From contig CAIOGM010000031.1 in assembly GCA_903857795.1 (NCBI GenBank), forward strand, positions 1 to 50,009: a DNA stretch of 50,009 nt, read 5' to 3'. Shown one piece after another: positions 2,992 to 29,735 of the stretch (positions are counted from its first letter, which is position 1; each line of letters starts with the position of its first letter). The notes beneath the pieces are model-generated. The model was not told the DNA's origin, made no database searches, and saw nothing but the letters and a program-made list of their open reading frames with translations. The stretch comes from an uncultured Geobacter sp. GTDB lineage: Bacteria; Desulfobacterota; Desulfuromonadia; Geobacterales; CAIOGM01. Made by a program: the position numbers and the translations under genes.

Positions 2992-4068
2992 GTGCGTCAT
3001 TCACGACGATTTTTTGTACCGATGGTGGTCGGCCTGTTGACCGTGACATCCGCTGGAACCGTTCCAGCGGATGTTGTCGCTCAGGACCGGTGTCTGGAGT
3101 GTCACGGCAGTCGGAGCGTTATCAGCAGCGGCAAGGGGTTTCTCTATATCGACGCCGTGAAATTCGGGGAGACCGCGCATTCGCGCATCGGCTGCTCCTC
3201 GTGCCACGATTCCGTCACCGCCGGGCATCCCCGGGACGGGGTGAGACCGTCCCGGGCCTCCTGCAAGGAGTGCCATGCCCCTGTGGTCAAGGAGTATCAG
3301 GCCGGTATCCATGCGGAGAAGGCGATCTGCTCCGACTGCCACAACCCCCACACCGCCCGGCCGGCGGAGGTGGTCTCCGGCACCGACATGAATATCCAGT
3401 GCGCCCGCTGCCACGAAAACGCCAGGACCATCAGGAGCCACTCCGGCTGGCTCCCCCAGGCGGAGCTTCATATCACCGCTCTCCCCTGCATCACCTGTCA
3501 CACCGGCTCGGAAAATTACGTCATCAACCTCTACATCCAGGCCCACCGGCGGGACAAACCGCACCACGGCTACACCCCCGCCACCTTTGACGAGCTGGCG
3601 CGGCTGGCCCCGGCCGGGGTTCCGGTGACCAGGGTGATCGACACCAACGGCGACGGCCGGGTCTCCCTGGAGGAGCTCAGGGCGTTCCACCGGGGGGCAG
3701 CCAATAAGGGGATGCGGCTCTGGGGGATGATGATGCCCGAGAAGATCACCCACACCTACCAGATCCTCAAGAACCGGTGGGACTGCACCTTCTGTCACGC
3801 TTCCGGGCCCAAGGCGCTTCAGACCAGTTATGTGGCGATTCCCGACAGGGAGGGGCGGTCGATCCGGCTGCCGGTGGATAAGGGGGCGGTCTTGGACCTC
3901 CTCTACGGAACGCCGGATTTCTACATGATGGGGAGTTCGCGGAGTTCGCTTCTGAGTATCATCGGCCTCGTCATCGTGGCCTGCGGGGCGATGGTGCCGC
4001 TGTTTCACGGCACGCTCCGGTTCCTGACCCGGAAGAACCGAAAGGAGACCCACCATGGCGCGGCATGA
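2992..4068 (+). CDS. Membrane-anchored seven-heme c-type cytochrome (CbcA-like)
   Basis: This is the first gene of an electron-transfer operon. The 358-residue product has an N-terminal signal peptide, seven CXXCH heme sites (CLECH, CSSCH, CKECH, CSDCH, CARCH, CITCH, CTFCH) and a C-terminal membrane helix (about 318-340), so it should be a periplasmic heme domain held in the inner membrane. Heme number, anchor and gene order match the cytochrome c subunit of the Geobacter Cbc5 menaquinol oxidoreductase; that link is by recall of the family. A canonical EF-hand loop ([12 protein letters not shown], encoded at 3640-3675) sits between hemes six and seven and may bind calcium. The start is GTG with GGAGGTAGAGA before it. 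The 3' end overlaps the cytochrome b gene by 14 bp. Confidence 0.9.
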
Positions 4069-4690
4069 GAAAATCTACCTCAACCCGACCCCCGTCCGGA
4101 TCTGGCACTGGCTCAACGCCCTGGGGATCATCACCCTGACCCTCACGGGGATCCAGATCCGCTGGCCCGAGTTCCTCAACTTCTTCGGCACCTACAAGGC
4201 GGCGGTCAGCCTCCACAACACCGCCGGGATCGTGGTCTCCATCTCCTATCTCCTCTGGATCGCCTACTACATCTTCGTCACCGGGAGCCTGCTGAAGATC
4301 TACGTCCCCACCGTGGATGAGCTGAAGTACGGCCTCTTCCGGCAGGCGATCTTCTACTTCTTCTTCTACTTCTTCGGCAAGCCCAACCCCCATTCGCCGA
4401 CCCCGGAGAACAAGTTCAACCCGCTGCAGAAGGTGACCTACCTGATGATCATGCTGCTGCTGCTCCCCCTGGTCATCGCCACCGGCCTCCTCATCATGAA
4501 CATCGGGCCGCTCCGTGAGGCGATCATCACCATGGGTGGACTCAAGCTCCTGGATGGCGCTCACTATCTGATCGCCTGCTGTTTTACCGCGTTCCTCTTC
4601 ATTCATGTCTACCTGGCGACCCTCGGCCATACCCCCTTCGCCCATACCAAGAGTATGTGGACCGGGTGGGAAGAAGGGGAGGAGAAGTGA
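4055..4690 (+). CDS. Cytochrome b561-family membrane subunit (CbcB-like)
   Basis: This 211-residue inner-membrane di-heme cytochrome b should take electrons from menaquinol and pass them to the periplasmic cytochromes encoded on either side. Four hydrophobic helices are evident. The likely heme-ligand histidines are His18 (IWHWLN), His54 (SLHNTAG), His170 (DGAHYLI) and His184 (LFIHVYL), the arrangement of the b561/Ni-hydrogenase/thiosulfate-reductase b-type family. The ATG lies inside the end of the upstream gene, and its own TGA overlaps the ATG of the next (TGATG), so the three subunits are probably made in fixed ratio. Gene order matches Geobacter cbcB; the symbol is not assigned because this rests on recall. 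Confidence 0.9.
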
Positions 4691-5664
4691 TGAAATTTGC
4701 GATGCTCCTCATTATTTTGGCGCTCTGGGGAGGGGCTGTGCTCCCGGTATCAGCCCTGGATCTCAGGGATGTGCTCTTCCATACGAAAGAGGTCGGCACG
4801 GTTCTCTTCAGCCACAAAGCCCATATCGCCACCGGGGCGCAGAAGAACAACTGCCGGGCCTGCCATGACAAGATCTTCGACATGAAGCATCCAGTCCGGC
4901 ATACCATGGCCGACATGGCTCAGGGAAAATCGTGTGGCGCCTGCCACAACGCCAGCGCCGCGTTTCCCCTGGCCCACTGTCTCAGGTGTCACCCGGTACG
5001 AAACCTGGCACTCCCGGTGAAAGAGACCGGGCCGGTGGAGTTCACCCATCAGGAGCATGCGGGGCGGACCCCCTGCAGTACCTGCCATCCGGCACTCTTC
5101 ATCGCAGGGAAGAACCGGCCGGTGGGGATGGCGGCAATGGCGAAGGGGACGTCGTGCGGCGTCTGCCACGACGGGGTGAAGGCGTTTGCCGTCGCATCCT
5201 GCGCCCGGTGCCATTCTGTTACGGATATCACCTTCAAGGTGAAGGAGACCGGCCCGGTGACCTTCACCCACAAGAACCACGCCGGCCGCCAGTCGTGCCA
5301 GGAGTGCCACCCGAAACTCTACAGCTATGTCAAGAACCGGCATGGAGGGATGGCCGCCATGGAGAAGGGGAAGTCGTGCGGCGCCTGCCATGACGGTAAA
5401 GCTGCCTTTAGCGTGAGCGACTGCAGCCGCTGCCACCCGGTGAAGGAGCTGACCTTCCCGGCGAAGGGGCTCTCCGCGGCCCGCTTCAGCCATAAGAGCC
5501 ACCTGGCCAAGAACCGCTGCGAGGCGTGTCACCCCGGGCTCTATCCGCTCAAGCGGGGGAAACCGGTGGGGATGTCCGCCATGGAGAAGGGGCGCTCTTG
5601 CGGCGCCTGCCATAACGGCGTCAAGGCGTTTCCGGTGACCGCCAGCTGCGGCTTCTGCCACTGA
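4690..5664 (+). CDS. Dodecaheme cytochrome built of four c7-type triheme domains
   Basis: This 324-residue periplasmic cytochrome has a signal peptide ([19 protein letters not shown]...) and four tandem ~70-residue units. Each unit carries three CXXCH sites, 12 in all, with the recurring pattern FSHK.H, C..CH, M..M.KG.SCG.CH, C..CH. This is the chain-of-c7 'nanowire' architecture known from Geobacter dodecaheme proteins such as GSU1996 and OmcQ, and the position after a cytochrome b gene fits OmcQ. It is expected to relay electrons across the periplasm. The start at 4690 is chosen over an upstream ATG at 4657 because it overlaps the previous stop and gives a clean signal peptide directly. Confidence 0.93.
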   Translation: MKFAMLLIILALWGGAVLPVSALDLRDVLFHTKEVGTVLFSHKAHIATGAQKNNCRACHDKIFDMKHPVRHTMADMAQGKSCGACHNASAAFPLAHCLRCHPVRNLALPVKETGPVEFTHQEHAGRTPCSTCHPALFIAGKNRPVGMAAMAKGTSCGVCHDGVKAFAVASCARCHSVTDITFKVKETGPVTFTHKNHAGRQSCQECHPKLYSYVKNRHGGMAAMEKGKSCGACHDGKAAFSVSDCSRCHPVKELTFPAKGLSAARFSHKSHLAKNRCEACHPGLYPLKRGKPVGMSAMEKGRSCGACHNGVKAFPVTASCGFCH

Positions 5665-9974: not shown

Positions 9975-10633
9975 TCCCTGTCGCCCCTGCGGCTCCTCTT
10001 GTTGATTTCAGCCTCTATCTCATCACCGACCAGGGGGCGACCAAGGGCCGGGAGCTCCTGACGGTGGTGGAGGAGGCGCTGGCCGGCGGGGTCCGGGGGG
10101 TGCAGCTCCGGGAGAAGGGGCTCTCTCCGCGCGACGCCTGTGAGTTGGCCCAAGAGCTGCGCCTCCTCACCTCCCGCTATGGCAGCCGACTGCTCATCAA
10201 CGACCGGGTGGACATCGCCCTGGCCGTGGGGGCCGACGGGGTTCACCTCCCCGAATCCGCTCTACCGGTGGTGGTGGCCCGGGAGCTCCTGGGCCCTTCA
10301 CGGCTCATCGGCGTCTCCTGCCACTCCCCGAAAGGGGCGCTGGAGGCTCAGCGGCAGGGGGCCGATTTCGTCACCCTGGGGCCGCTCTACGCCACCCCCT
10401 CCAAGGCCCGGTATGGCGCGCCGCTGGGGATTCCTCCCCTGGTCGAGGCGCTGGGCTCCCTCTCGATCCCGCTCTTCGCCCTGGGGGGGATAACCCTGGA
10501 GCGGCTGCCTGAGCTGCAGGCGGCAGGGCTCCACCGCATCGCCCTCATCTCCGCCATCCTCTCCGCCCGTGCGCCCAAGGCCGAGGCAGACACCTTCATC
10601 AGACTCCTCCAGAGGAGCGCCCCATCGTCGTGA
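9971..10633 (+). CDS. thiE: Thiamine-phosphate synthase ThiE
   Basis: ThiE joins HMP pyrophosphate to thiazole phosphate to give thiamine phosphate. The 220-residue TIM barrel has LYLITDQ near the start, the QLREK phosphate/substrate motif, [38 protein letters not shown] and FALGGIT. It begins with GTG overlapping the thiG stop and ends overlapping the GTG of the next gene, so thiG, thiE and the radical SAM gene are strung together by 4-bp GTGA overlaps. Confidence 0.95.
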
Positions 10634-11574
10634 CCAGAGTTCAGCCCACTCCGATGATCAACCCCGACCTCCGGTTCAACTCCTACGGGAGCTGGCTCCG
10701 GCGCCGTTTCGGCTGCCGGGTGAGCAAGGTGAACGTGGACGCCGGCTTCACCTGCCCCAACCGGGACGGGAGCCGGGGGGTCGGCGGCTGCATCTACTGC
10801 GACAACAGCAGCTTCTCCCCGCCGGGGACCCAGCCGGCGCTCACCATCGAGCAGCAGATGGCCGAAGGGATGAGCTACCACCGGCGCCGGCTCAACAGTG
10901 AACGGTTTATCGTCTACTTCCAGAAATACACCAACACCTACTCCTCGGAAGAGGCCCTGGCCGACCTCTACCGGCGGGCGCTGGACCACCCCGACGTGGT
11001 CGGGATCTCGGTGGGGACGCGGCCCGACGCCCTCTCCGACGGGGCCATCGACCTCCTGGCTGAACTGGCCCGTGACCGGTACGTCTGTGTGGAGCTGGGG
11101 CTCCAGTCCATGGACGACGAGATCCTCACCCGGATCAACCGGGGGCACACCCTGGCCGAATACCGTGAGGCGGTGGCTCGGCTCACCGGCCGGGGGATCG
11201 CTCTCTGTACCCACCTCATCTACGGTTTCCCCGGGGAGAGCCGGGAGAGCTTCCTGGAGACGGCGGAGCTGATGGCGTCGCTTCCCATGGAGTCGCTCAA
11301 GCTGCACCAGCTCCATGCCGTGGCCGGGACGCGGCTGGCCGACCTCTATCGGCAGGGGGAGTTCATTCCCCTGACCCATGGCGAGTATCTGGCGACGGTC
11401 TGTGATTTTCTGGAGCGGCTGCCGGCGCGGATCGCCATTCAGCGGCTCTACGGCTCCGCCCCTCTGGCCATCAGGGTGGCCCCTACCTGGGGGCTGAAGA
11501 ACAACCAGATGTGGTATTCGGTGGTCAACGAGCTGAAGCGGCGGGGGAGCTGGCAGGGGTGTCGGGTGGAGTAG
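10630..11574 (+). CDS. YhcC-type radical SAM protein (TIGR01212 family)
   Basis: The 314-residue protein has the family's unusual radical-SAM cluster motif, CPNRDGSRGVGGCIYC, near residue 40, in place of plain CX3CX2C, followed by QKYTNTYSS and GTRPDALSD. The family is conserved next to varied metabolic genes, but its reaction is not settled; E. coli YhcC is the reference member. The GTG start overlaps the thiE stop, so it belongs to the thiamine transcript here, although no direct role in thiamine synthesis is implied. Confidence 0.9.
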   Translation: MTRVQPTPMINPDLRFNSYGSWLRRRFGCRVSKVNVDAGFTCPNRDGSRGVGGCIYCDNSSFSPPGTQPALTIEQQMAEGMSYHRRRLNSERFIVYFQKYTNTYSSEEALADLYRRALDHPDVVGISVGTRPDALSDGAIDLLAELARDRYVCVELGLQSMDDEILTRINRGHTLAEYREAVARLTGRGIALCTHLIYGFPGESRESFLETAELMASLPMESLKLHQLHAVAGTRLADLYRQGEFIPLTHGEYLATVCDFLERLPARIAIQRLYGSAPLAIRVAPTWGLKNNQMWYSVVNELKRRGSWQGCRVE

Positions 11575-13417: not shown

Positions 13418-13801
13418 ATGCTGACCTTTGCGGTGAGTGAGGAGAAGAACCGGCAGCTCCGGGCGCGGATGGCGGAGCTGGCGGTGGCCGAGGCCGACCT
13501 GGAGGAGCGCTTCATCCGGTCGTCGGGGTGCGGTGGCCAGCATGTGAACAAGAGCTCCACCTGCGTCTACCTGAAGCATCGCCCCACGGGGATCGAGGTC
13601 AAGTGTATGGCAGAGCGGAGCCAGTCGCTCAACCGCTTCCTGGCGCGGCGGGAGCTGCTGGAGAAGATCGCCGTGGCCCGAGGGATGGTGACCCCCCGGG
13701 TCAGCCAACAGGAGCGGATCAGGAAACAGAAGAGCAGGCAACGGAGACGGACGGCGCAGAAGCAGGGGCCCTCCGGCGGAGAAGAGCATGATCAGCAGTG
13801 A
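13418..13801 (+). CDS. GGQ release-factor-domain protein (ribosome rescue type)
   Basis: The 127-residue protein consists of a release-factor catalytic domain only. It has the GGQ motif at 39-41 in the context RSSGCGGQHVNKSSTCVYL, the part that triggers peptidyl-tRNA hydrolysis in the ribosome, and then a very basic tail (RIRKQKSRQRRRTAQKQ). It lacks the codon-recognition and tRNA-mimic domains of RF1/RF2, as in ArfB (YaeJ) and the mitochondrial C12orf65 group, so it probably frees stalled ribosomes. It overlaps the mutS2 start by 14 bp. The RBS before the ATG is weak (GGAG about 12 bases away). Confidence 0.9.
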   Translation: MLTFAVSEEKNRQLRARMAELAVAEADLEERFIRSSGCGGQHVNKSSTCVYLKHRPTGIEVKCMAERSQSLNRFLARRELLEKIAVARGMVTPRVSQQERIRKQKSRQRRRTAQKQGPSGGEEHDQQ

Positions 13802-16136
13802 TACCCTCCGTATTCTGGAGTTCGATCGGGTCCTGGCGGCCATCGGCATCAACGCCCACAGTGAGGTCACCCTGGAGGCGATCCTTTCGCTCCAGCCGCT
13901 CGGCCAGCGCGCCGAGATCGAGCCCCGTTTCGGCCGGGTGGCCGAACTCCGGATGCTCACCCGGAGCCGGACTCCGCTGCGGTTCGACCCCTTCCCGGAG
14001 ATCGCGCCGCTCCTGGATGCGGTCCGGCCGGTGGGGGCCGCGCCCCCCCCCGTGCTGCTGGCATCGCTCATCCCGATCCTCTCTCTCCTCACCCGGATCG
14101 CCCGGCAGCTGGGATTTCGCAGCGACGTCCCCTTCCTGAAAGAGATGAGCGAAGAGCTCACCGGGTTCCCCGATCTCCTGGACGAGCTGCAGAGCTCCCT
14201 GGACGAGGAGGGGAAGATCCTGGACGGCGCCTCGCGGCTCCTGGCCGACCTCCGCTCCCGCAGCCGGGGGCTTTCGGTCCGGATCCGGCGGCGGCTGGAG
14301 GAGATCGTCCGGGAGAAGGAGAAGGCGCTCTTCCTCCAGGACGACTTCATCACCCAGCGGCGGGGGAGGTGGGTCATCCCGGTCCGGATGGACTCCAAGG
14401 GGATGGTCCCCGGGGTGGTTCACGACGTCTCCAACAGCGGCGAGACCGCCTTCATGGAGCCGCAGGAGATCATCCCGCTTTCCAATGAGTTGGAAAACCT
14501 GGCCGCCGAGGAGAAGGCCGAGGAGATCAGAATCGTCAAGGCCCTGGCCACCTGGGTCAGGGAGCAGGCGGCTTCCCTTTCCGTTGAATTCGCGCTCCTG
14601 GTGCGCCTGGACCTGCACAACGCCATCGCCCTCTACGCCGACACGGTGGAGGGGGAGAACCCGATCCTGGACGACGAGCCGTGCCTGGAGATCATCCGGG
14701 GGCGGCACCCGCTCCTCATCCTGGCCCGCCCGGGGGAGCAACGCCGCGAGGTGGTCCCCCTGGAGTGCCGGCTGGGTGGCGAGGCGCGGGTGATGGTGAT
14801 CACCGGCCCCAACGCGGGGGGGAAGACCATCGCCCTCAAGACCGCCGGACTCCTCCTCCTCTGCGCCCTCACCGGCATCCCGGTCCCGGCTGACCCCTCC
14901 TCCCGCTTCCCCCTCCTCTCCGGGCTCATGGCCGATATCGGCGACGAACAGTCCCTGGAGCAGAATCTCTCCACCTTCTCCGCCCATATCTCCACCGTGG
15001 CGAGGATCATCGGCCGGGTGGATGGCAGAAGCCTGGTCCTCCTGGATGAACTGGGGACCGGGACGGAGCCGGTGCAGGGGGCCGCCATCGGTTGCGGCGT
15101 CCTGAAGGAGCTTCATGAGCGAGGGGCGCTGGTTCTCGCCACCACCCATCTGACCCAGATCGTCGGCTTCGTCCACCAGACCCCCGGGATGGTCAACGCC
15201 TCCATGGAGTACGACGGGGAGCGGTTCCTCCCCCTCTACCGGCTTAAGAGCGGCGAACCGGGAGAGTCCCACGCCCTGGAGATCGCCCGGCGGTACGGCC
15301 TCCCCCAGCGGATCATCGACTTCGCCGCGGGGATGGCGGGGCGGATGGATTCGGAGTTCCATCAGCTCCTCCATGAACTCAAAGGGGAGCGCCATCGGTA
15401 CGAAGAGCTCACCGGGATCCTTCGACAGCGGGAGAGTGAGCTGGGTGTACGGGAGCGGCTGGCAGAGGAGCGGCTGGCCTCCCTGGAGCGGGAGTCCCTG
15501 GAACGGCGGGAGCGGGGGGTGAAGGAGAGCCGGGAGCTGGTGGAGAGGGCCCGGCGGGAGGTGAACGCCATCCTCGACCGGGCGCGGCGGGAGAAGCGGG
15601 TGGAGGCGCGTCAGGAGCTGGCGGCGGTGGCCCAAGAGGTGACGGCCCACTCCCGACTCCTCCTCCCGGAAGGGGAGCTGCCGCCGGACGAGATCGTCCC
15701 GGGCGCCACGCTTTTCGTCACCTCCCTGGGGTACGATGCCCAGGTTATTTCCGTGGACCGGAGGCAGGGGAGGGTGCGGGTCAGGGCCGGAAACCTGGAG
15801 TTCGAGGCGCCCCTCTCCGGTGTGACCCTCAAGTCGGGGAAGAAGGCGCTCACTCCACCGGGGAGGCGCCGGCCAACGGAGGAGGAGGTTGAGCCCACAA
15901 CCACGCTTACCCTCCTGGGGGAGCGGGTGGATGAGGCGTTGGCCCGCCTGGAGAGCTTTCTTGACCGGGCCTCACTGGGGGGGGTGGCCGAGGTGACCGT
16001 GGTCCACGGCATCGGTACCGGTGCGCTCCGGGCGGCGGTGCGGGAAGAGCTGGCCCGCCACCCCCTGGTTGCGGAGTTTCGGCGGGGGGAGCGGCACGAG
16101 GGGGGGGACGGGGTGACGGTGGTCCGGCTGGGGTAG
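13788..16136 (+). CDS. mutS2: MutS2 ATPase/endonuclease
   Basis: The 782-residue protein has the MutS-type clamp/lever region, an ABC-type ATPase with Walker A ITGPNAGGKT (near 338-347) and Walker B LVLLDELGTGTEP, a long charged coiled coil (about 520-620), a KOW-like segment near 640-690 and a C-terminal Smr nuclease domain (VTVVHGIGTGALRAAV). It lacks the mismatch-recognition domain of MutS1. Known roles in the family are suppression of recombination and, in Bacillus subtilis, recognition and splitting of collided ribosomes. Its start lies inside the GGQ-protein gene, which argues for shared expression. Full length, no disruption seen. Confidence 0.96.
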   Translation: MISSDTLRILEFDRVLAAIGINAHSEVTLEAILSLQPLGQRAEIEPRFGRVAELRMLTRSRTPLRFDPFPEIAPLLDAVRPVGAAPPPVLLASLIPILSLLTRIARQLGFRSDVPFLKEMSEELTGFPDLLDELQSSLDEEGKILDGASRLLADLRSRSRGLSVRIRRRLEEIVREKEKALFLQDDFITQRRGRWVIPVRMDSKGMVPGVVHDVSNSGETAFMEPQEIIPLSNELENLAAEEKAEEIRIVKALATWVREQAASLSVEFALLVRLDLHNAIALYADTVEGENPILDDEPCLEIIRGRHPLLILARPGEQRREVVPLECRLGGEARVMVITGPNAGGKTIALKTAGLLLLCALTGIPVPADPSSRFPLLSGLMADIGDEQSLEQNLSTFSAHISTVARIIGRVDGRSLVLLDELGTGTEPVQGAAIGCGVLKELHERGALVLATTHLTQIVGFVHQTPGMVNASMEYDGERFLPLYRLKSGEPGESHALEIARRYGLPQRIIDFAAGMAGRMDSEFHQLLHELKGERHRYEELTGILRQRESELGVRERLAEERLASLERESLERRERGVKESRELVERARREVNAILDRARREKRVEARQELAAVAQEVTAHSRLLLPEGELPPDEIVPGATLFVTSLGYDAQVISVDRRQGRVRVRAGNLEFEAPLSGVTLKSGKKALTPPGRRRPTEEEVEPTTTLTLLGERVDEALARLESFLDRASLGGVAEVTVVHGIGTGALRAAVREELARHPLVAEFRRGERHEGGDGVTVVRLG

Positions 16137-16276: not shown

Positions 16277-17554
16277 ATGATTCAGGACCAATCACCACCG
16301 CCGGTCTCCCTCCGGGAGTCCGGCCCACAAAGAGTTCCCGAACTCCTGGCCCCCGCCGGTAACCGGGAGAAACTGGCCCTGGCCATAGCGTACGGCGCTG
16401 ACGCCGTCTACCTGGGGGGGAGCTCCTTCGGCCTGCGCAACCAGGCGGACAACTTCACCGACGACGAGCTCGCCGGAGGGGTCGCCTATGCCCATGACCG
16501 GGGGGTAAAGGCGTACCTGACGGTGAACTGGTACGCGGGAGGCGCAGACCTCCCCGGGCTTGAGTCATTCCTCCAGCGGATCGCCCCGATCCCCTTTGAC
16601 GCCTACATCGTCGCCGATCCCGGCGTCATCGATCTGGTCCGGGAGATCTCGCCGGAACGGACGATCCATCTCTCCACCCAGGCAAACAGCACCAACTGGC
16701 GCAGCGCCTCCTTCTGGAGCCGCCAGGGGATCAGCCGGATCAACCTGGCCCGGGAGATGCCCCTGGAGGAGATCCGCGAGGTCAGGCGCCGGGCGCCGGT
16801 GGAGATCGAACTCTTTGTCCATGGGGCGCTCTGCATCTCCTATTCGGGGCGCTGCCTCCTCTCCAGCGCCATGACCGGCCGCAACGCCAACAAGGGGGAG
16901 TGCGCCCACCCCTGCCGGTGGAACTATTCGCTGGTGGAGGAGAGCCGGCCCGGTGAGTATTTCCCGGTGCTCCAGGACGATCACGGCACCTTCATCTTCA
17001 ACTCCCGGGATCTCTGCCTGCTGCCGTATCTTCCCGAGCTGGTGACGGCTGGGGTCGATTCCCTCAAGATCGAGGGGCGGATGAAGGGGGTCAACTACGT
17101 GGCTTCGGTGGTCCGGGTCTACCGGGAGGCGCTGGACCGGTATCGCGACGATCCCGGCCGCTACTCCTGCAGGCCCGAGTGGCTGGAGGAGCTGGCCAAG
17201 ATCAGCCACCGGGGGTACACGACGGGGTTCATCTTCGGGGCGCCCCGGGACGTGGCGGTGGAGTATGACTCCCGCTACATCCGTTCCCACGACTTTGTCG
17301 GTCTGGTGGAGGAGGTGGCGGAGGACGGCGTCGCCACCATCGGGGTCAGAAACCGGATCAGGGAAGGGGAGTTGCTGGAGATCATCGGCCCCAGGATGGC
17401 GGCTCACCACCACCCCCTGGAGGGGATGACCGACGAGGCGGGGAGTCCCATGAGCGTCGCCCACCCCAACAGCAGAGTGCTTCTTCCTCTCCCGTTTCCG
17501 GTGGCGCGGTACGATCTCGTCCGGCGGGAGTGTAAAAACGTTTCTCCGGCTTAA
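16277..17554 (+). CDS. Peptidase U32 family protein (TrhP/YegQ-like)
   Basis: The 425-residue protein has the U32 signature: PELLAPAGNREKL, YLGGSSFGLR, then the cysteine-bearing ELFVHGALCISYSGRC and NKGECAHPCRW segment that in this family binds an iron-sulfur cluster, and SLKIEGRMK. Despite the name, the studied YegQ-type members (TrhP) hydroxylate uridine-34 of tRNA using prephenate, which is the best guess here by length and motif order. The ATG at 16277 has only a weak upstream GTGAG. The gene ends 7 bp before arnT. Confidence 0.9.
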   Translation: MIQDQSPPPVSLRESGPQRVPELLAPAGNREKLALAIAYGADAVYLGGSSFGLRNQADNFTDDELAGGVAYAHDRGVKAYLTVNWYAGGADLPGLESFLQRIAPIPFDAYIVADPGVIDLVREISPERTIHLSTQANSTNWRSASFWSRQGISRINLAREMPLEEIREVRRRAPVEIELFVHGALCISYSGRCLLSSAMTGRNANKGECAHPCRWNYSLVEESRPGEYFPVLQDDHGTFIFNSRDLCLLPYLPELVTAGVDSLKIEGRMKGVNYVASVVRVYREALDRYRDDPGRYSCRPEWLEELAKISHRGYTTGFIFGAPRDVAVEYDSRYIRSHDFVGLVEEVAEDGVATIGVRNRIREGELLEIIGPRMAAHHHPLEGMTDEAGSPMSVAHPNSRVLLPLPFPVARYDLVRRECKNVSPA

Positions 17555-25211: not shown

Positions 25212-28200
25212 ATGAAAGACAACGTGCCCGAAGGTAATTATCATCACCGATGGTTAGTTTCCCTGCTGTTTTCTCTCATCATTTACGCTCTCCTGATCAC
25301 CGCCGCGTCGGCGGAAACGTATGTCAACAGAGTCTGGCACCCATACCCTCCCGGCTACGACCCCCCCGGTTATTACACCTACGACCCTGTAACCATCTCC
25401 AGTAACACCACCTGGACCGTGGCCGGCAGCCCGTACATCCTCCAGAATACGGTGACCGTGGCGGAGGGCTCTACGCTTACCATCGCACCTGGGGTCGAAG
25501 TTCGTGTGGGCGACAATCTGGCGATCTCTGTCTACGGAACCGTTGCGGCTAACCAGGTGACCTTCACCCGCTCGGGGGGTGGTTTCTGGGGAGGGCTCTA
25601 TTTTGCCCCCACCGCCGGGGGGTCGTCACTGATCAACTGCAACTTCAGCTACTCCGGCGCCTTTAACAGCGGTTTTGGTCAGCATGTCATGCCCCACGGC
25701 TACTGGGTGATGGCGACCCTCTATCTGGACAGCTGTAATCCGACTATCACCGGCTGCGGGATCACCAACAGCGAGACCCACGGCATCTCCCTCTGGAGCA
25801 GTCGCGCCACGATCACCGGGAACAGCTTCCAGAACATGGGGGACGGGAGGTACCCGCTCACCTTCGACACCACCGATACCTTCCCGGTGATGAGCGGTAA
25901 CAGCACCAGCGGCGCCGGTGAGAACGGCGTTGCCCTTCCCGGTGGCGCCATGTCGGTTTCCGGAACCTGGACCCGACCCGGCGTTGGCTTCCCGTATCTG
26001 CTGAACGGCTCGCCCGATGTGGCGGTGGGGAGCGCCCTGACCATCGATCCGGGCAACACCTTCAAGTCCGTGGGAGAAATTGGTTTCTACGTCAACGGCA
26101 CGCTGAACGCTCCCGGCAGCGCCGCCCTGCCTATACTCTTCACCTCGCGCAGCGTCACACCGGCCGCCGGGAACTGGCGGGGGATCTACCTGGCGCCCAC
26201 CGCCACCATCACCGCCATGAACTACGTCACCATCGACTATGCCGGCGGCTTCTTTGGCGGCTTTGGGCTCCATGTCCAAGCTCATGGTGACTGGGCCATC
26301 GCCGCCCTGTATCTGGACGGTATCAGTCCGACTCTGAGTCATCTCTCGATTCTCCATAGTGGAACCACCGGTCTGGAACTCTACGGCGCATCCCCGGTCA
26401 TCGGTAACGGTCTGCTTGAGAACTGCAGCTGGCATGGAGTGAAGGGGAGCAATAGCTCCCGCCCGGTCATTACCAGTACGAGTATCAACAGCAATGGCGG
26501 TGCCGACCCCGGGTACTATGCGGTCAGTCTCGACGCCTCGTCGGCGCCCAACCCCATTGGCGTCACGTTCGCGGGCAACAGTTACCAGGGGGTTCAGATC
26601 AGGGGCGGCAGCATCGGCAGCAGCGTCTTGTGGAAGAACTGGAGCAACAATGCGCCGTATGCCGTTACCGGTTTTGTGACAGTTGACGCCGGCCTTACCC
26701 TGACTATCGAACCGGCCACCACGGTGAAGCTCTCGGGGGTTGCTCTCCATGTTTACGGTACGCTGACCGCCAACAGCACCACTGGTCGGATTACCTTCAC
26801 CTCACTGGCCGACGACAGTATCGGCGGTGATACCAATGGCAATGGCGCTGCAACCCTTCCTGCCGCCGGGAACTGGCGAGGGATCTACCTGTCGCCCACT
26901 TCCGGAAGCTCAACGCTGGTCAATTGCACCATCAACTATGCCGGAGGCTCGTACGGCGGTTTTGGTCTCAATGTCATGCCCCACGGCTCTTGGGCCGTTG
27001 CGGCCATGTATCTGGACAGCTGCAATCCGACCATCACCGGCTGCCGGATCACCAACAGCGAGACCCAGGGGATAGATTTATGGTCGAGCAAGGCCACCAT
27101 CACCAACAACACCTTTAGCAACATGGGGAGCGGCGGGTATCCGCTCAAGTTCGAAACTACCGATACCTTCCCGGTGATGAGCGGTAACAGCACCAGCGGC
27201 ACCGGCGAAAACGGCATCGCCCTGCCTGGTGGCGTCATGTCTGTTTCCGGAACCTGGACCCGCCCCGGCGTCAACTTTCCGTATCTGCTGGACGGCTCGC
27301 CCGATGTCGCGGTTGGGACCACCCTGACCATCGATCCGGGCAACAGCCTCAAAATCGTCGGTGACATCGGTTTCTACGTCAACGGTACGCTGAACGCCCC
27401 CGGCAGCGGCGCCCTGCCGATCATCTTCACCTCGCGCAGCGCCACACCTGCGCCGGGGAACTGGCGTGGCGTCTACCTGGCGCCTACCGCCACCATCACC
27501 GCCATGAGCTATGTCACCATAGCGTATGCCGGCGGCTCTTTCGGTGGCTTCGGCCTTCATGTCATGCCCCGCGGGGTTTGGCTCATTGCCAGCCTTTACG
27601 TCGACGGCATCAGCCCGACCTTGAGCCACCTCTCCATACTCCAGAGCGAGACCAACGGGCTGGAGCTCTACGGCGCCTCCCCGATCATCGGCAACGGTCT
27701 GTTTACAGGGTGCGGCTGGAACGCCCTCCGGGGTACGAACAGCTCCCGACCGGTGATCACCGACACGGCCTTCAACGGCAACAGCATCAACGACGGCGGC
27801 TACTTCACGATCAGCCTCGACGCCTCCTCGGTGCCGAATCCCACCGGGGTGACCTTCTCCGGCAACAAGAAACAGGGGATCGAGGTACGGGGGGGGAGTC
27901 TCGTGAGCAGCGCCCTCTGGAAGAGGTGGAGTGCTAACGCCCCATACGCGGTGACCGGCGACACGACCATCGATGCCGGTCTGACCCTGACCATCGAACC
28001 GGCCAGTACGGTGAAATTCTGGGGGAGCGCATTTTTTGTGAACGGCATCCTCTCGGCCAACAGCAGCAGCGGCCGGATCACCTTCACCTCTCTGGCCGAC
28101 GACTATGACGGTGACACCAACGGCGATGGCGCCGCCTCCCTGCCGGCGGCGGGGAACTGGCGGGGGATCTACCTGTCGCCGGACTCCGGCGGGTCGTCAC

Positions 28201-29735
28201 TGGTCAACTGCAACCTCAGTTACTCCGGCGCCAGTAACGGCGGTTATGGGCAGCGTATCATGCCCCACGGCTACTGGGTTATGGCGACCATCTACGTTGA
28301 CGGCTGCAATCCGACCATCACCGGCTGCCGGCTTGCCGACAGCGAGACCCACGGCATCGTCCTCTGGAGCAGTCGCGCCACCATCACCGGGAACAGCTTC
28401 CAGAACATGGGGGTCGGGTGGTATCCGCTCAAGTTTGAAACTACCGATACCTTCCCGGTGATGAGCGGCAACAGCACCGGTGGCACCGGTGAGAACGGCG
28501 TCGCCTTCCCCGGCGGGGAGATCACCGTTTCCGGAACCTGGACCCGGCCCGGTGCGGAGTTTCCCTATCTGCTCAACGGCTCACCGACTGTCGCGGCAGG
28601 GGCCGCCCTGACCATCGCTCCGGGCAACAGCATCAAGATAGCCGGTGACATCGGCTTCTACGTCAACGGCACGCTGAACGCCCCCGGCACCAGTTCCCTG
28701 CCCATCGTCTTCACCTCGCGCAGCGCCACACCGGCGGCGGGGAACTGGCGTGGCGTCTACCTGGCGCCCACCGCCACCATCACCGCCATGAGCTATGTCA
28801 CCATAGCGTATGCCGGCGGCTCTTTCGGCGGCTACGGTCTCCGTGTCATGCCCCACGGCGGATGGGTTTTTGCCGGCCTCTACGTCGACGGCATCAGTCC
28901 TACCTTAAGCCACCTCCTGATTTTGAACAGCGAGACCAACGGGTTGAACCTGTATACGGCTAGCCCGGGCATTACTGCCGCCCGGTTTCAGAGCTGCGGC
29001 TGGAATGAGCTTCTTGCCGAGGCCGGTTCCCAGCCGGTGATCCGGCAGAGCAGCTTTATCGGTGGATCGTCAAACTGGGGAGTCAACAACAGCACGCCGG
29101 CAACGGTCATCGACGCCCGCAACAACTACTGGGGGGGCGCTACCGGGCCGTACCATGTGACAAGCAATCCTTCCGGCAGCGGGGTCCGCGTTTCCGATGG
29201 GGTCAACTATTCGAATTGGCGGGTTGAAGACGGTTTCCTCCTGACAGTTGCCATGGCTGGGAGTGGCGCCGGTATGGTCAACAGCAATTCGGTGATCCAC
29301 TGTCCCGGTGTCTGTTCGGCGATCTACCCGGATGGTGATCAGGTACTGCTCATGCCGACCGAGGGGGAGAGTCTCTTTAAAGGGTGGTCGGGAGGCGGTT
29401 GTTCGGGGACGGGGAATTGTCAGGTGACGCTCTCCGGTGATACTACGGTCACGGCAACGTTCAACCTGGCCCCGCAGGTCCGGATCGATGGGCCGACTCC
29501 CCGGTATTTCGAGACCATCCAGGCTGCCTGTACTGCCGTAACCGCCAACAACACGGTCATTCAGGCGCGGGAGTATGAATTTGTCGAGAGCGTGATCTAT
29601 GGCAAACCGTACAGCGTGACCCTTAAGGGGGGGTACGACAAGAGCTTCAGCACGCGGCCCGGCAAGAGCGGCATCAAGGGGAAACTGACGCTGGGGGCTG
29701 GGCAGCTGACGTTGGATGGCATAACGGTGAGATGA
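25212..29735 (+). CDS. Giant secreted right-handed beta-helix repeat protein
   Basis: The 1507-residue product has a signal peptide (membrane stretch near 15-35, cleavage after ASA) and then a chain of short beta-helix rungs rich in Gly, Asn, Ser and Thr, of the NTFSNMG / GNSFQNMG / NPTITGC type seen in parallel beta-helix (pectate-lyase-like) surface proteins. A ~428-residue block is repeated: SGTWTRPG recurs at codons encoded at about 25956, 27243 and 28527. Near the end come an InlB-like/'bacterial repeat' segment (LLMPTEGESLFKGWSGGGCS, then TVTATF) and a last beta-helix turn. No cell-wall or autotransporter domain is seen. It interrupts the arn locus. AAAAGGAGACGTGAC precedes the ATG. Function unknown; adhesin or polysaccharide-binding are options. 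Confidence 0.85.
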   Translation: MKDNVPEGNYHHRWLVSLLFSLIIYALLITAASAETYVNRVWHPYPPGYDPPGYYTYDPVTISSNTTWTVAGSPYILQNTVTVAEGSTLTIAPGVEVRVGDNLAISVYGTVAANQVTFTRSGGGFWGGLYFAPTAGGSSLINCNFSYSGAFNSGFGQHVMPHGYWVMATLYLDSCNPTITGCGITNSETHGISLWSSRATITGNSFQNMGDGRYPLTFDTTDTFPVMSGNSTSGAGENGVALPGGAMSVSGTWTRPGVGFPYLLNGSPDVAVGSALTIDPGNTFKSVGEIGFYVNGTLNAPGSAALPILFTSRSVTPAAGNWRGIYLAPTATITAMNYVTIDYAGGFFGGFGLHVQAHGDWAIAALYLDGISPTLSHLSILHSGTTGLELYGASPVIGNGLLENCSWHGVKGSNSSRPVITSTSINSNGGADPGYYAVSLDASSAPNPIGVTFAGNSYQGVQIRGGSIGSSVLWKNWSNNAPYAVTGFVTVDAGLTLTIEPATTVKLSGVALHVYGTLTANSTTGRITFTSLADDSIGGDTNGNGAATLPAAGNWRGIYLSPTSGSSTLVNCTINYAGGSYGGFGLNVMPHGSWAVAAMYLDSCNPTITGCRITNSETQGIDLWSSKATITNNTFSNMGSGGYPLKFETTDTFPVMSGNSTSGTGENGIALPGGVMSVSGTWTRPGVNFPYLLDGSPDVAVGTTLTIDPGNSLKIVGDIGFYVNGTLNAPGSGALPIIFTSRSATPAPGNWRGVYLAPTATITAMSYVTIAYAGGSFGGFGLHVMPRGVWLIASLYVDGISPTLSHLSILQSETNGLELYGASPIIGNGLFTGCGWNALRGTNSSRPVITDTAFNGNSINDGGYFTISLDASSVPNPTGVTFSGNKKQGIEVRGGSLVSSALWKRWSANAPYAVTGDTTIDAGLTLTIEPASTVKFWGSAFFVNGILSANSSSGRITFTSLADDYDGDTNGDGAASLPAAGNWRGIYLSPDSGGSSLVNCNLSYSGASNGGYGQRIMPHGYWVMATIYVDGCNPTITGCRLADSETHGIVLWSSRATITGNSFQNMGVGWYPLKFETTDTFPVMSGNSTGGTGENGVAFPGGEITVSGTWTRPGAEFPYLLNGSPTVAAGAALTIAPGNSIKIAGDIGFYVNGTLNAPGTSSLPIVFTSRSATPAAGNWRGVYLAPTATITAMSYVTIAYAGGSFGGYGLRVMPHGGWVFAGLYVDGISPTLSHLLILNSETNGLNLYTASPGITAARFQSCGWNELLAEAGSQPVIRQSSFIGGSSNWGVNNSTPATVIDARNNYWGGATGPYHVTSNPSGSGVRVSDGVNYSNWRVEDGFLLTVAMAGSGAGMVNSNSVIHCPGVCSAIYPDGDQVLLMPTEGESLFKGWSGGGCSGTGNCQVTLSGDTTVTATFNLAPQVRIDGPTPRYFETIQAACTAVTANNTVIQAREYEFVESVIYGKPYSVTLKGGYDKSFSTRPGKSGIKGKLTLGAGQLTLDGITVR
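25956..29000 (+). repeat. ~1.28-kb tandem DNA repeats inside the beta-helix gene
   Basis: The sequence GTTTCCGGAACCTGGACCCG occurs, with small changes, at 25956, 27243 and 28527, giving periods of 1287 and 1284 bases. Conservation extends through most of each unit; the third is incomplete. The part before 25956 matches the second half of the unit. Units differ by scattered substitutions, so they are not a fresh duplication, and both periods are whole codons. Confidence 0.9.

Follow-up and report, generated by a model that had tools for sequence, protein, structure and literature searches.

In the ribosome-associated quality control (RQC) of Bacillus subtilis, stalled ribosomes are split by MutS2, and the blocked 50S subunit then passes to RqcH (PMC10897456; this and the other articles cited by accession are quoted from excerpts of their texts), and Pth is also named among the RQC factors of this species (PMC11317155). 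The mitochondrial factor mtRF-R (MTRFR, C12orf65) is thought to hydrolyse peptidyl-tRNA on the split mitochondrial large subunit together with MTRES1 and was inactive in tests on 70S or 55S ribosomes with an empty A site; according to the same 2021 review, as excerpted, no release factor mediates RQC in bacteria (PMC8786322). A survey published in mBio counted mutS2 in 5,133 genomes and rqcH in 3,727 (PMC11633108). Many bacteria have MutS2 without RqcH, and the gene pair described here is a testable candidate for clearing the blocked 50S subunit.

The pair was identified in a stretch of 50,009 nucleotides from an uncultured Geobacter sp. (contig CAIOGM010000031.1, hereafter the window) and consists of a gene for a small GGQ protein that overlaps mutS2. 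The domain set of the splitter MutS2 is shared with B. subtilis RQC, in which RqcH and RqcP act next (the MSSS part scores below its cut-off here), but no RqcH was found in the host or, over cut-off, in its relatives, and the peptide would be set free by hydrolysis without prior alanine tailing. The GGQ protein has a lone GGQ domain, no codon reader, no alpha-i helix and a basic C-terminal helix in common with mtRF-R (PDB 7a5h), which is its best match by sequence, by profile and, among the matches listed, by the TM score of the model; the difference is that the gene described here is bacterial and overlaps mutS2, whereas the splitter of human mitochondrial RQC (mtRQC) is called unknown in the excerpted review (PMC8786322). 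ArfB (YaeJ, ICT1) shares the small GGQ hydrolase layout and the basic tail but differs in the short extent of its alignment and in the alpha-i helix, which is missing here, and the GGQ protein scores under the ArfB cut-off. PrfH, known together with RtcB, has an RF-1 domain without the RF3-binding part in common with the GGQ protein but retains a remnant of the codon domain (PMC6514570), and the GGQ protein reaches 56 bits on the PrfH model against a cut-off of 166.65.

We propose, with a probability of about one half, that the GGQ gene and mutS2 encode consecutive steps of an RQC route that ends in a release factor and not in RqcH. Gene content, conservation, the relation of the GGQ protein to MTRFR and its mutual exclusion with RqcH were established directly, and the substrate, the order of the steps and the coupling are the proposed parts. 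As was shown for B. subtilis, MutS2 would bind collided ribosomes via its KOW and Smr parts and split the stalled one with its ATPase, and the resulting 50S subunit would still carry an obstructing peptidyl-tRNA. The MTRFR-like protein, which carries no stop-codon-reading domain, would then occupy the vacant A site of this subunit and place its GGQ loop in the peptidyl-transferase centre, where the peptidyl-tRNA would be hydrolysed and the subunit freed without alanine tailing. The overlap of the genes would coordinate splitter and releaser in the order to which the host belongs, and Pth could be a competitor for the same 50S-release role. The protein fold and MutS2 are of known kinds, and an MTRFR-type family acting as partner of MutS2 and substitute for RqcH would be a new form of RQC; no literature joining an MTRFR/C12orf65-type factor with MutS2 was found among open-licence papers. 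The pair, found in Geobacter-type bacteria, is a candidate for a bacterial release-factor RQC with the splitter encoded alongside, and it offers a simple setting in which to study MTRFR, a human disease protein.

A broader reading, which we regard as tentative and on balance doubtful, is that the pair forms a complete bacterial counterpart of mtRQC: MutS2 would split collided ribosomes, a genetically coupled MTRFR-type factor would clear the 50S subunit and replace tailing by RqcH in whole orders, and mitochondrial MTRFR would descend from the bacterial family. If this were true, "tail" and "release" would be ancient, interchangeable options that follow one constant splitter.

Organization of the locus

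A preliminary description made from the sequence alone had noted a lone GGQ release-factor domain with a basic tail, overlapping mutS2 by 14 bp, and this stands: the open reading frame contains a PF00472 domain and runs into an intact mutS2, and the tail is predicted to be helical (table 1). MutS2 was assigned to the TIGR01069 equivalog (708.8 bits, cut-off 400), with the MutS_V and Smr domains over cut-off, an intact Walker A motif and an MSSS/KOW-like SH3 part that was matched only below cut-off. The overlap and the GGAG in front of the mutS2 start fit a possible translational coupling of the two genes. No Rfam features were found in the window and no sigma-70-like promoter in a scan around the pair.

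Table 1. Features of the GGQ gene and mutS2 in the window.
Feature	Position	Strand	Basis
MTRFR/C12orf65-like lone GGQ release-factor-domain protein, 127 aa	13418..13801	+	ORF; sequence, profile and tree comparison
RF-1 domain, residues 20-115	13475..13762	+	Pfam PF00472, E 7.4e-23
GGQ catalytic motif, residues 39-41	13532..13540	+	invariant in 27/27 aligned orthologs
Basic C-terminal helix, residues 93-115 (predicted)	13694..13762	+	AlphaFold2 model; basic tail conserved in orthologs
GGAG, Shine-Dalgarno-like, six bases 5' of mutS2 ATG, within GGQ gene	13778..13781	+	by eye
14-bp overlap of GGQ and mutS2 frames	13788..13801	+	ORF coordinates
mutS2, 782 aa	13788..16136	+	ORF and TIGR01069; MutS_V ATPase (Walker A GPNAGGKT), MSSS/KOW-like, Smr
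MutS domain V (ATPase), residues 336-517	14793..15338	+	Pfam match
MSSS (MutS2- and Smr-associated SH3, KOW-like part), residues 638-677	15699..15818	+	22.5 bits, below curated cut-off 26.8
Smr domain, residues 709-781	15912..16130	+	Pfam match, over cut-off

Further translation-related genes lie near the pair. A gene of the U32 peptidase family (16277-17554), with the tRNA hydroxylase TrhP as nearest equivalog (below cut-off), follows 140 bp past mutS2, and the other is a tRNA-modification radical SAM gene of the MnmL/YtqA type (10630-11574). Elsewhere in the window, positions 25212-29735 encode a probably secreted protein of 1507 amino acids with long internal repeats that appear beta-helix-like by eye. 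The host assembly contains a second GGQ-mutS2 pair (G000:C52:14429-17141) that is 78-79% identical to the pair in the window; its scores (205.9 and 1287.6 bits) equal those of a genome of the same genus (G003), and it represents a genuine duplication or, alternatively, a contig from a sister strain within the assembly. Open frames of 925, 495 and 309 amino acids suggested a GGQ-MutS2 fusion, which was rejected: in one locus (L013) the protein ends before mutS2, and the remaining two are stop-poor frames in GC-rich sequence.

Identity of the small GGQ protein

The RF-1 domain with its GGQ motif was the only domain found in a Pfam search, and a stop-codon-recognition domain was absent. None of the curated equivalog cut-offs for RF1, RF2, PrfH and ArfB was reached; on the ArfB model NF006718 the protein scored 50.2 bits over residues 19-53 (cut-off 100). 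In a phmmer search against solved chains the best match was human mtRF-R (7a5h, E 1.3e-17), followed by mouse C12orf65 (2.6e-15), RF1 (~3e-10) and ArfB (~7e-7), and a profile of 27 orthologs returned the same ranking (9.4e-25, 1.7e-20, 1.2e-16 and 2.7e-10, respectively). In both searches the ArfB alignment was confined to query residues ~20-56 or fewer, and its end near residue 54 fits the alpha-i insertion of ArfB class 1 (ICT1), a helix between the last two sheet strands (PMC6514570).

An AlphaFold2 model of the protein (mean pLDDT 82, nine sequences) joins the corresponding strands (49-54 and 60-63) by a short turn without an alpha-i helix, as expected of the MTRFR/C12orf65 family (PMC6514570); taken on its own the absence of alpha-i is compatible with classical ArfB, which also lacks it. 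Foldseek placed RF1/RF2 chains first by E-value and, among the matches listed, mtRF-R highest by query TM (0.55, compared with 0.37 for ArfB). VIA-align ranked RF1 on top (Z 9.2) with mtRF-R at Z 7.8, and only mtRF-R aligned across 105 residues with the tail included, covering residues 17-125 of the GGQ protein. A tree of RF domains (~100 columns, long branches) united the bacterial family with mammalian MTRFR with a support of 98/97; the alternative that groups MTRFR with the ArfB-like paralog described below was not rejected (p-AU 0.287). As judged by profile, tree and predicted structure, the GGQ protein appears to be MTRFR/C12orf65-like. The ArfB-type identity assumed in the preliminary description was therefore not borne out, and plain ArfB was discarded as first choice on the score below the NF006718 cut-off, the order of the phmmer and profile matches, and the finding that none of the 58 relatives contains a canonical ArfB over the NCBIfam cut-off.

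Another GGQ open frame (108-148 amino acids) was found in 11 of the 58 relatives at E 1e-12 (L343-L353). The encoded protein lacks alpha-i, aligns with the latter half of the ArfB model and ends in an ArfB-type tail, and its profile finds RF2 first, then ArfB (1e-17), with MTRFR at the bottom (3e-12). The presence of this separate ArfB-like paralog in some relatives means that at least some genomes carry two kinds of small GGQ proteins. The paralog falls below the cut-off of the ArfB model and would escape any survey relying on ArfB models at this threshold.

These results bear on the possibility that the GGQ protein is an ArfB-like non-stop rescue factor that acts on intact 70S ribosomes, its tail entering the empty mRNA channel and its GGQ loop releasing the peptide, and that has no direct link to MutS2. 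The combination of GGQ domain and basic tail is the layout of ArfB, and in relatives without canonical ArfB a non-stop factor could be wanted. We nevertheless consider this unlikely: profile, tree and model favour mtRF-R over ArfB, an ArfB-type tail is found on a separate paralog, mtRF-R itself failed on 70S and 55S ribosomes with an empty A site (PMC8786322), and a non-stop function offers no reason for the exclusion of RqcH.

Linkage to mutS2 and mutual exclusion with RqcH

The GGQ gene was found in 57 of the 58 relatives (it is absent from G046) and MutS2 in all 58. In 35 of the 57 genomes (36 out of 58 if counted per gene match, with the second copy in the host included) the GGQ gene immediately precedes mutS2 in the same orientation, with match-to-match gaps of -11 to 258 bp. 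Sixteen of the 19 genera show the adjacency, which is represented in each of the order's four families; genera g4, g8 and g13 lack it. It is thus not limited to the host genome, and the recurrence of the same gene order and strand across these genera and families argues that the pair is not a product of chance. The pair is also present in the MAG of Geobacter sp. UBA6802 (L084), the sole named locus with it among the matches listed. In that locus mutS2 matches as two adjoining pieces (3003-5377; residues 1-473 and 475-781), possibly through a frameshift, an insertion or an assembly error.

A single profile scan of contigs from named genomes found at least nine family members among the 80 loci listed; among these matches were members in Omnitrophota, a Nitrospirae MAG, Deltaproteobacteria and an unplaced MAG. 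None of the eight family loci outside Geobacter among the matches listed, some of them on short contigs, has the GGQ gene next to mutS2, so that the adjacency sought in other phyla was not recovered. Within a sample of 197 genomes from the phylum of the host, all three carriers in a family outside the order (f20) have the adjacent pair. Their MutS2 nests within the MutS2 clade of the host order (support 96-100) and their GGQ proteins group beside those of the order (support 92/80); in the simplest reading of these trees, the family probably acquired the pair by transfer and kept the genes together. In G130 the two genes are 1.35 kb apart, and in family f82 and most of the phylum they are apart. 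Adjacency as a general rule was ruled out; it is limited to the host order, f20 and, at 1.35 kb, G130. Inspection by eye of 12 loci without an adjoining mutS2 showed no other recurrent direct neighbour of the GGQ gene, the sole recurring exception being a rho-like gene near it in g8 and g13.

If an MTRFR-like factor does the job of RqcH, it should replace RqcH in genomes. A search for RqcH (NFACT-N, PF05833), in which the positive controls were recovered, found none in the host and none over cut-off in the 58 relatives. The phylum sample of 197 genomes contained 44 with the factor, 40 with RqcH over cut-off and none with both, and enlargement of this sample to 394 genomes gave 85, 81 and none, respectively. 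All 127 genomes of a class sample contained MutS2, of which 64 carried the factor, 49 RqcH, none both and 14 neither. The three samples overlap; the union of the 394- and 127-genome samples comprises 138 genomes with the factor and 121 with RqcH, and none with both. The cleanest case is family f82, where the two genomes of genus g160 carry the factor and no RqcH, and seven from other genera carry RqcH and no factor; MutS2 is present in every one of them.

Within the 197-genome sample the factor only weakly predicted MutS2 (38/44 vs. 111/153, p 0.07), six of the 44 carriers being without it, and the presence of either the factor or RqcH went with MutS2 (74/84 vs. 75/113 with neither, p 0.0004). 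Neither was found in 75 of the 149 genomes with MutS2; some RqcH proteins have diverged and give weak scores, so that part of this group may be missed RqcH, and a factor carrier may likewise hold an RqcH that was missed.

Fisher tests of the exclusion gave p values of 2e-5 (197 genomes), 4e-10 (394) and 9e-23 (127) that are uncorrected for kinship between genomes, which are not independent. Kinship was approached with a MutS2 tree, a proxy only for species history, with 161 tips: 38 factor-bearing (one of them that of the window), 36 RqcH-bearing and 46 of the 75 with neither from the MutS2-containing genomes of the 197 sample, G005 from the relatives and 40 chosen class genomes, a set enriched for both states. 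The factor needs 15 changes on this tree and RqcH 18. Simulation of independent traits gave a probability of no overlap of at most 0.0003 on all 161 state-enriched tips. Eight even thinnings of the phylum sample, which correct the state imbalance of the phylum part and leave out the 40 class additions, gave a mean of 0.028 (range 0.006-0.059), and the class part gave 0.064 and 0.019. A sign test on ~14 independent pairs, with ~2 opposite, none the same and ~12 undecided, had too few pairs for significance.

The exclusion could also be real with the GGQ protein acting as a general releaser for obstructed 50S subunits of any origin (HflX, HrpA, heat shock or MutS2), MutS2 being one of several suppliers. 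The carriers without MutS2 and the separation of the two genes in many lineages fit such a role, and MutS2 is neither strictly required for RQC in B. subtilis nor the only splitter (PMC11633108). This appears rather improbable to us, as no gene other than mutS2 recurred directly beside the GGQ gene in the loci inspected and the pair stayed together in the foreign family f20. Anti-recombination has been claimed for other MutS2 proteins, and a chance operon of a DNA-acting MutS2 and an unrelated translation factor, with the RqcH exclusion due to shared ancestry, would agree with the adjacency broken in three of 19 genera and with the scarcity of independent sister pairs but is very unlikely in view of the overlap or short gaps kept in the other 16 genera, the split between factor and RqcH within f82, and the lack of any genome with both.

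The distribution agrees best with the proposed release-factor route and hints, at the level of gene content, at a ribosome-rescue route independent of RqcH in bacteria. The rescue pair suggested in the preliminary description is upheld in part: the conserved adjacency in the order, the pair in f20 and the replacement of RqcH where MutS2 is kept speak for it, and it has to be amended in that the partner of MutS2 is MTRFR-like and not ArfB-like and that the adjacency is missing in three genera. The state of the factor also varies within a single genus of family f110 (g264; G442, G466 and G480), where the MTRFR-like gene occurs without RqcH in one genome and both are missing from the other two, a pattern that represents a recent gain or loss.
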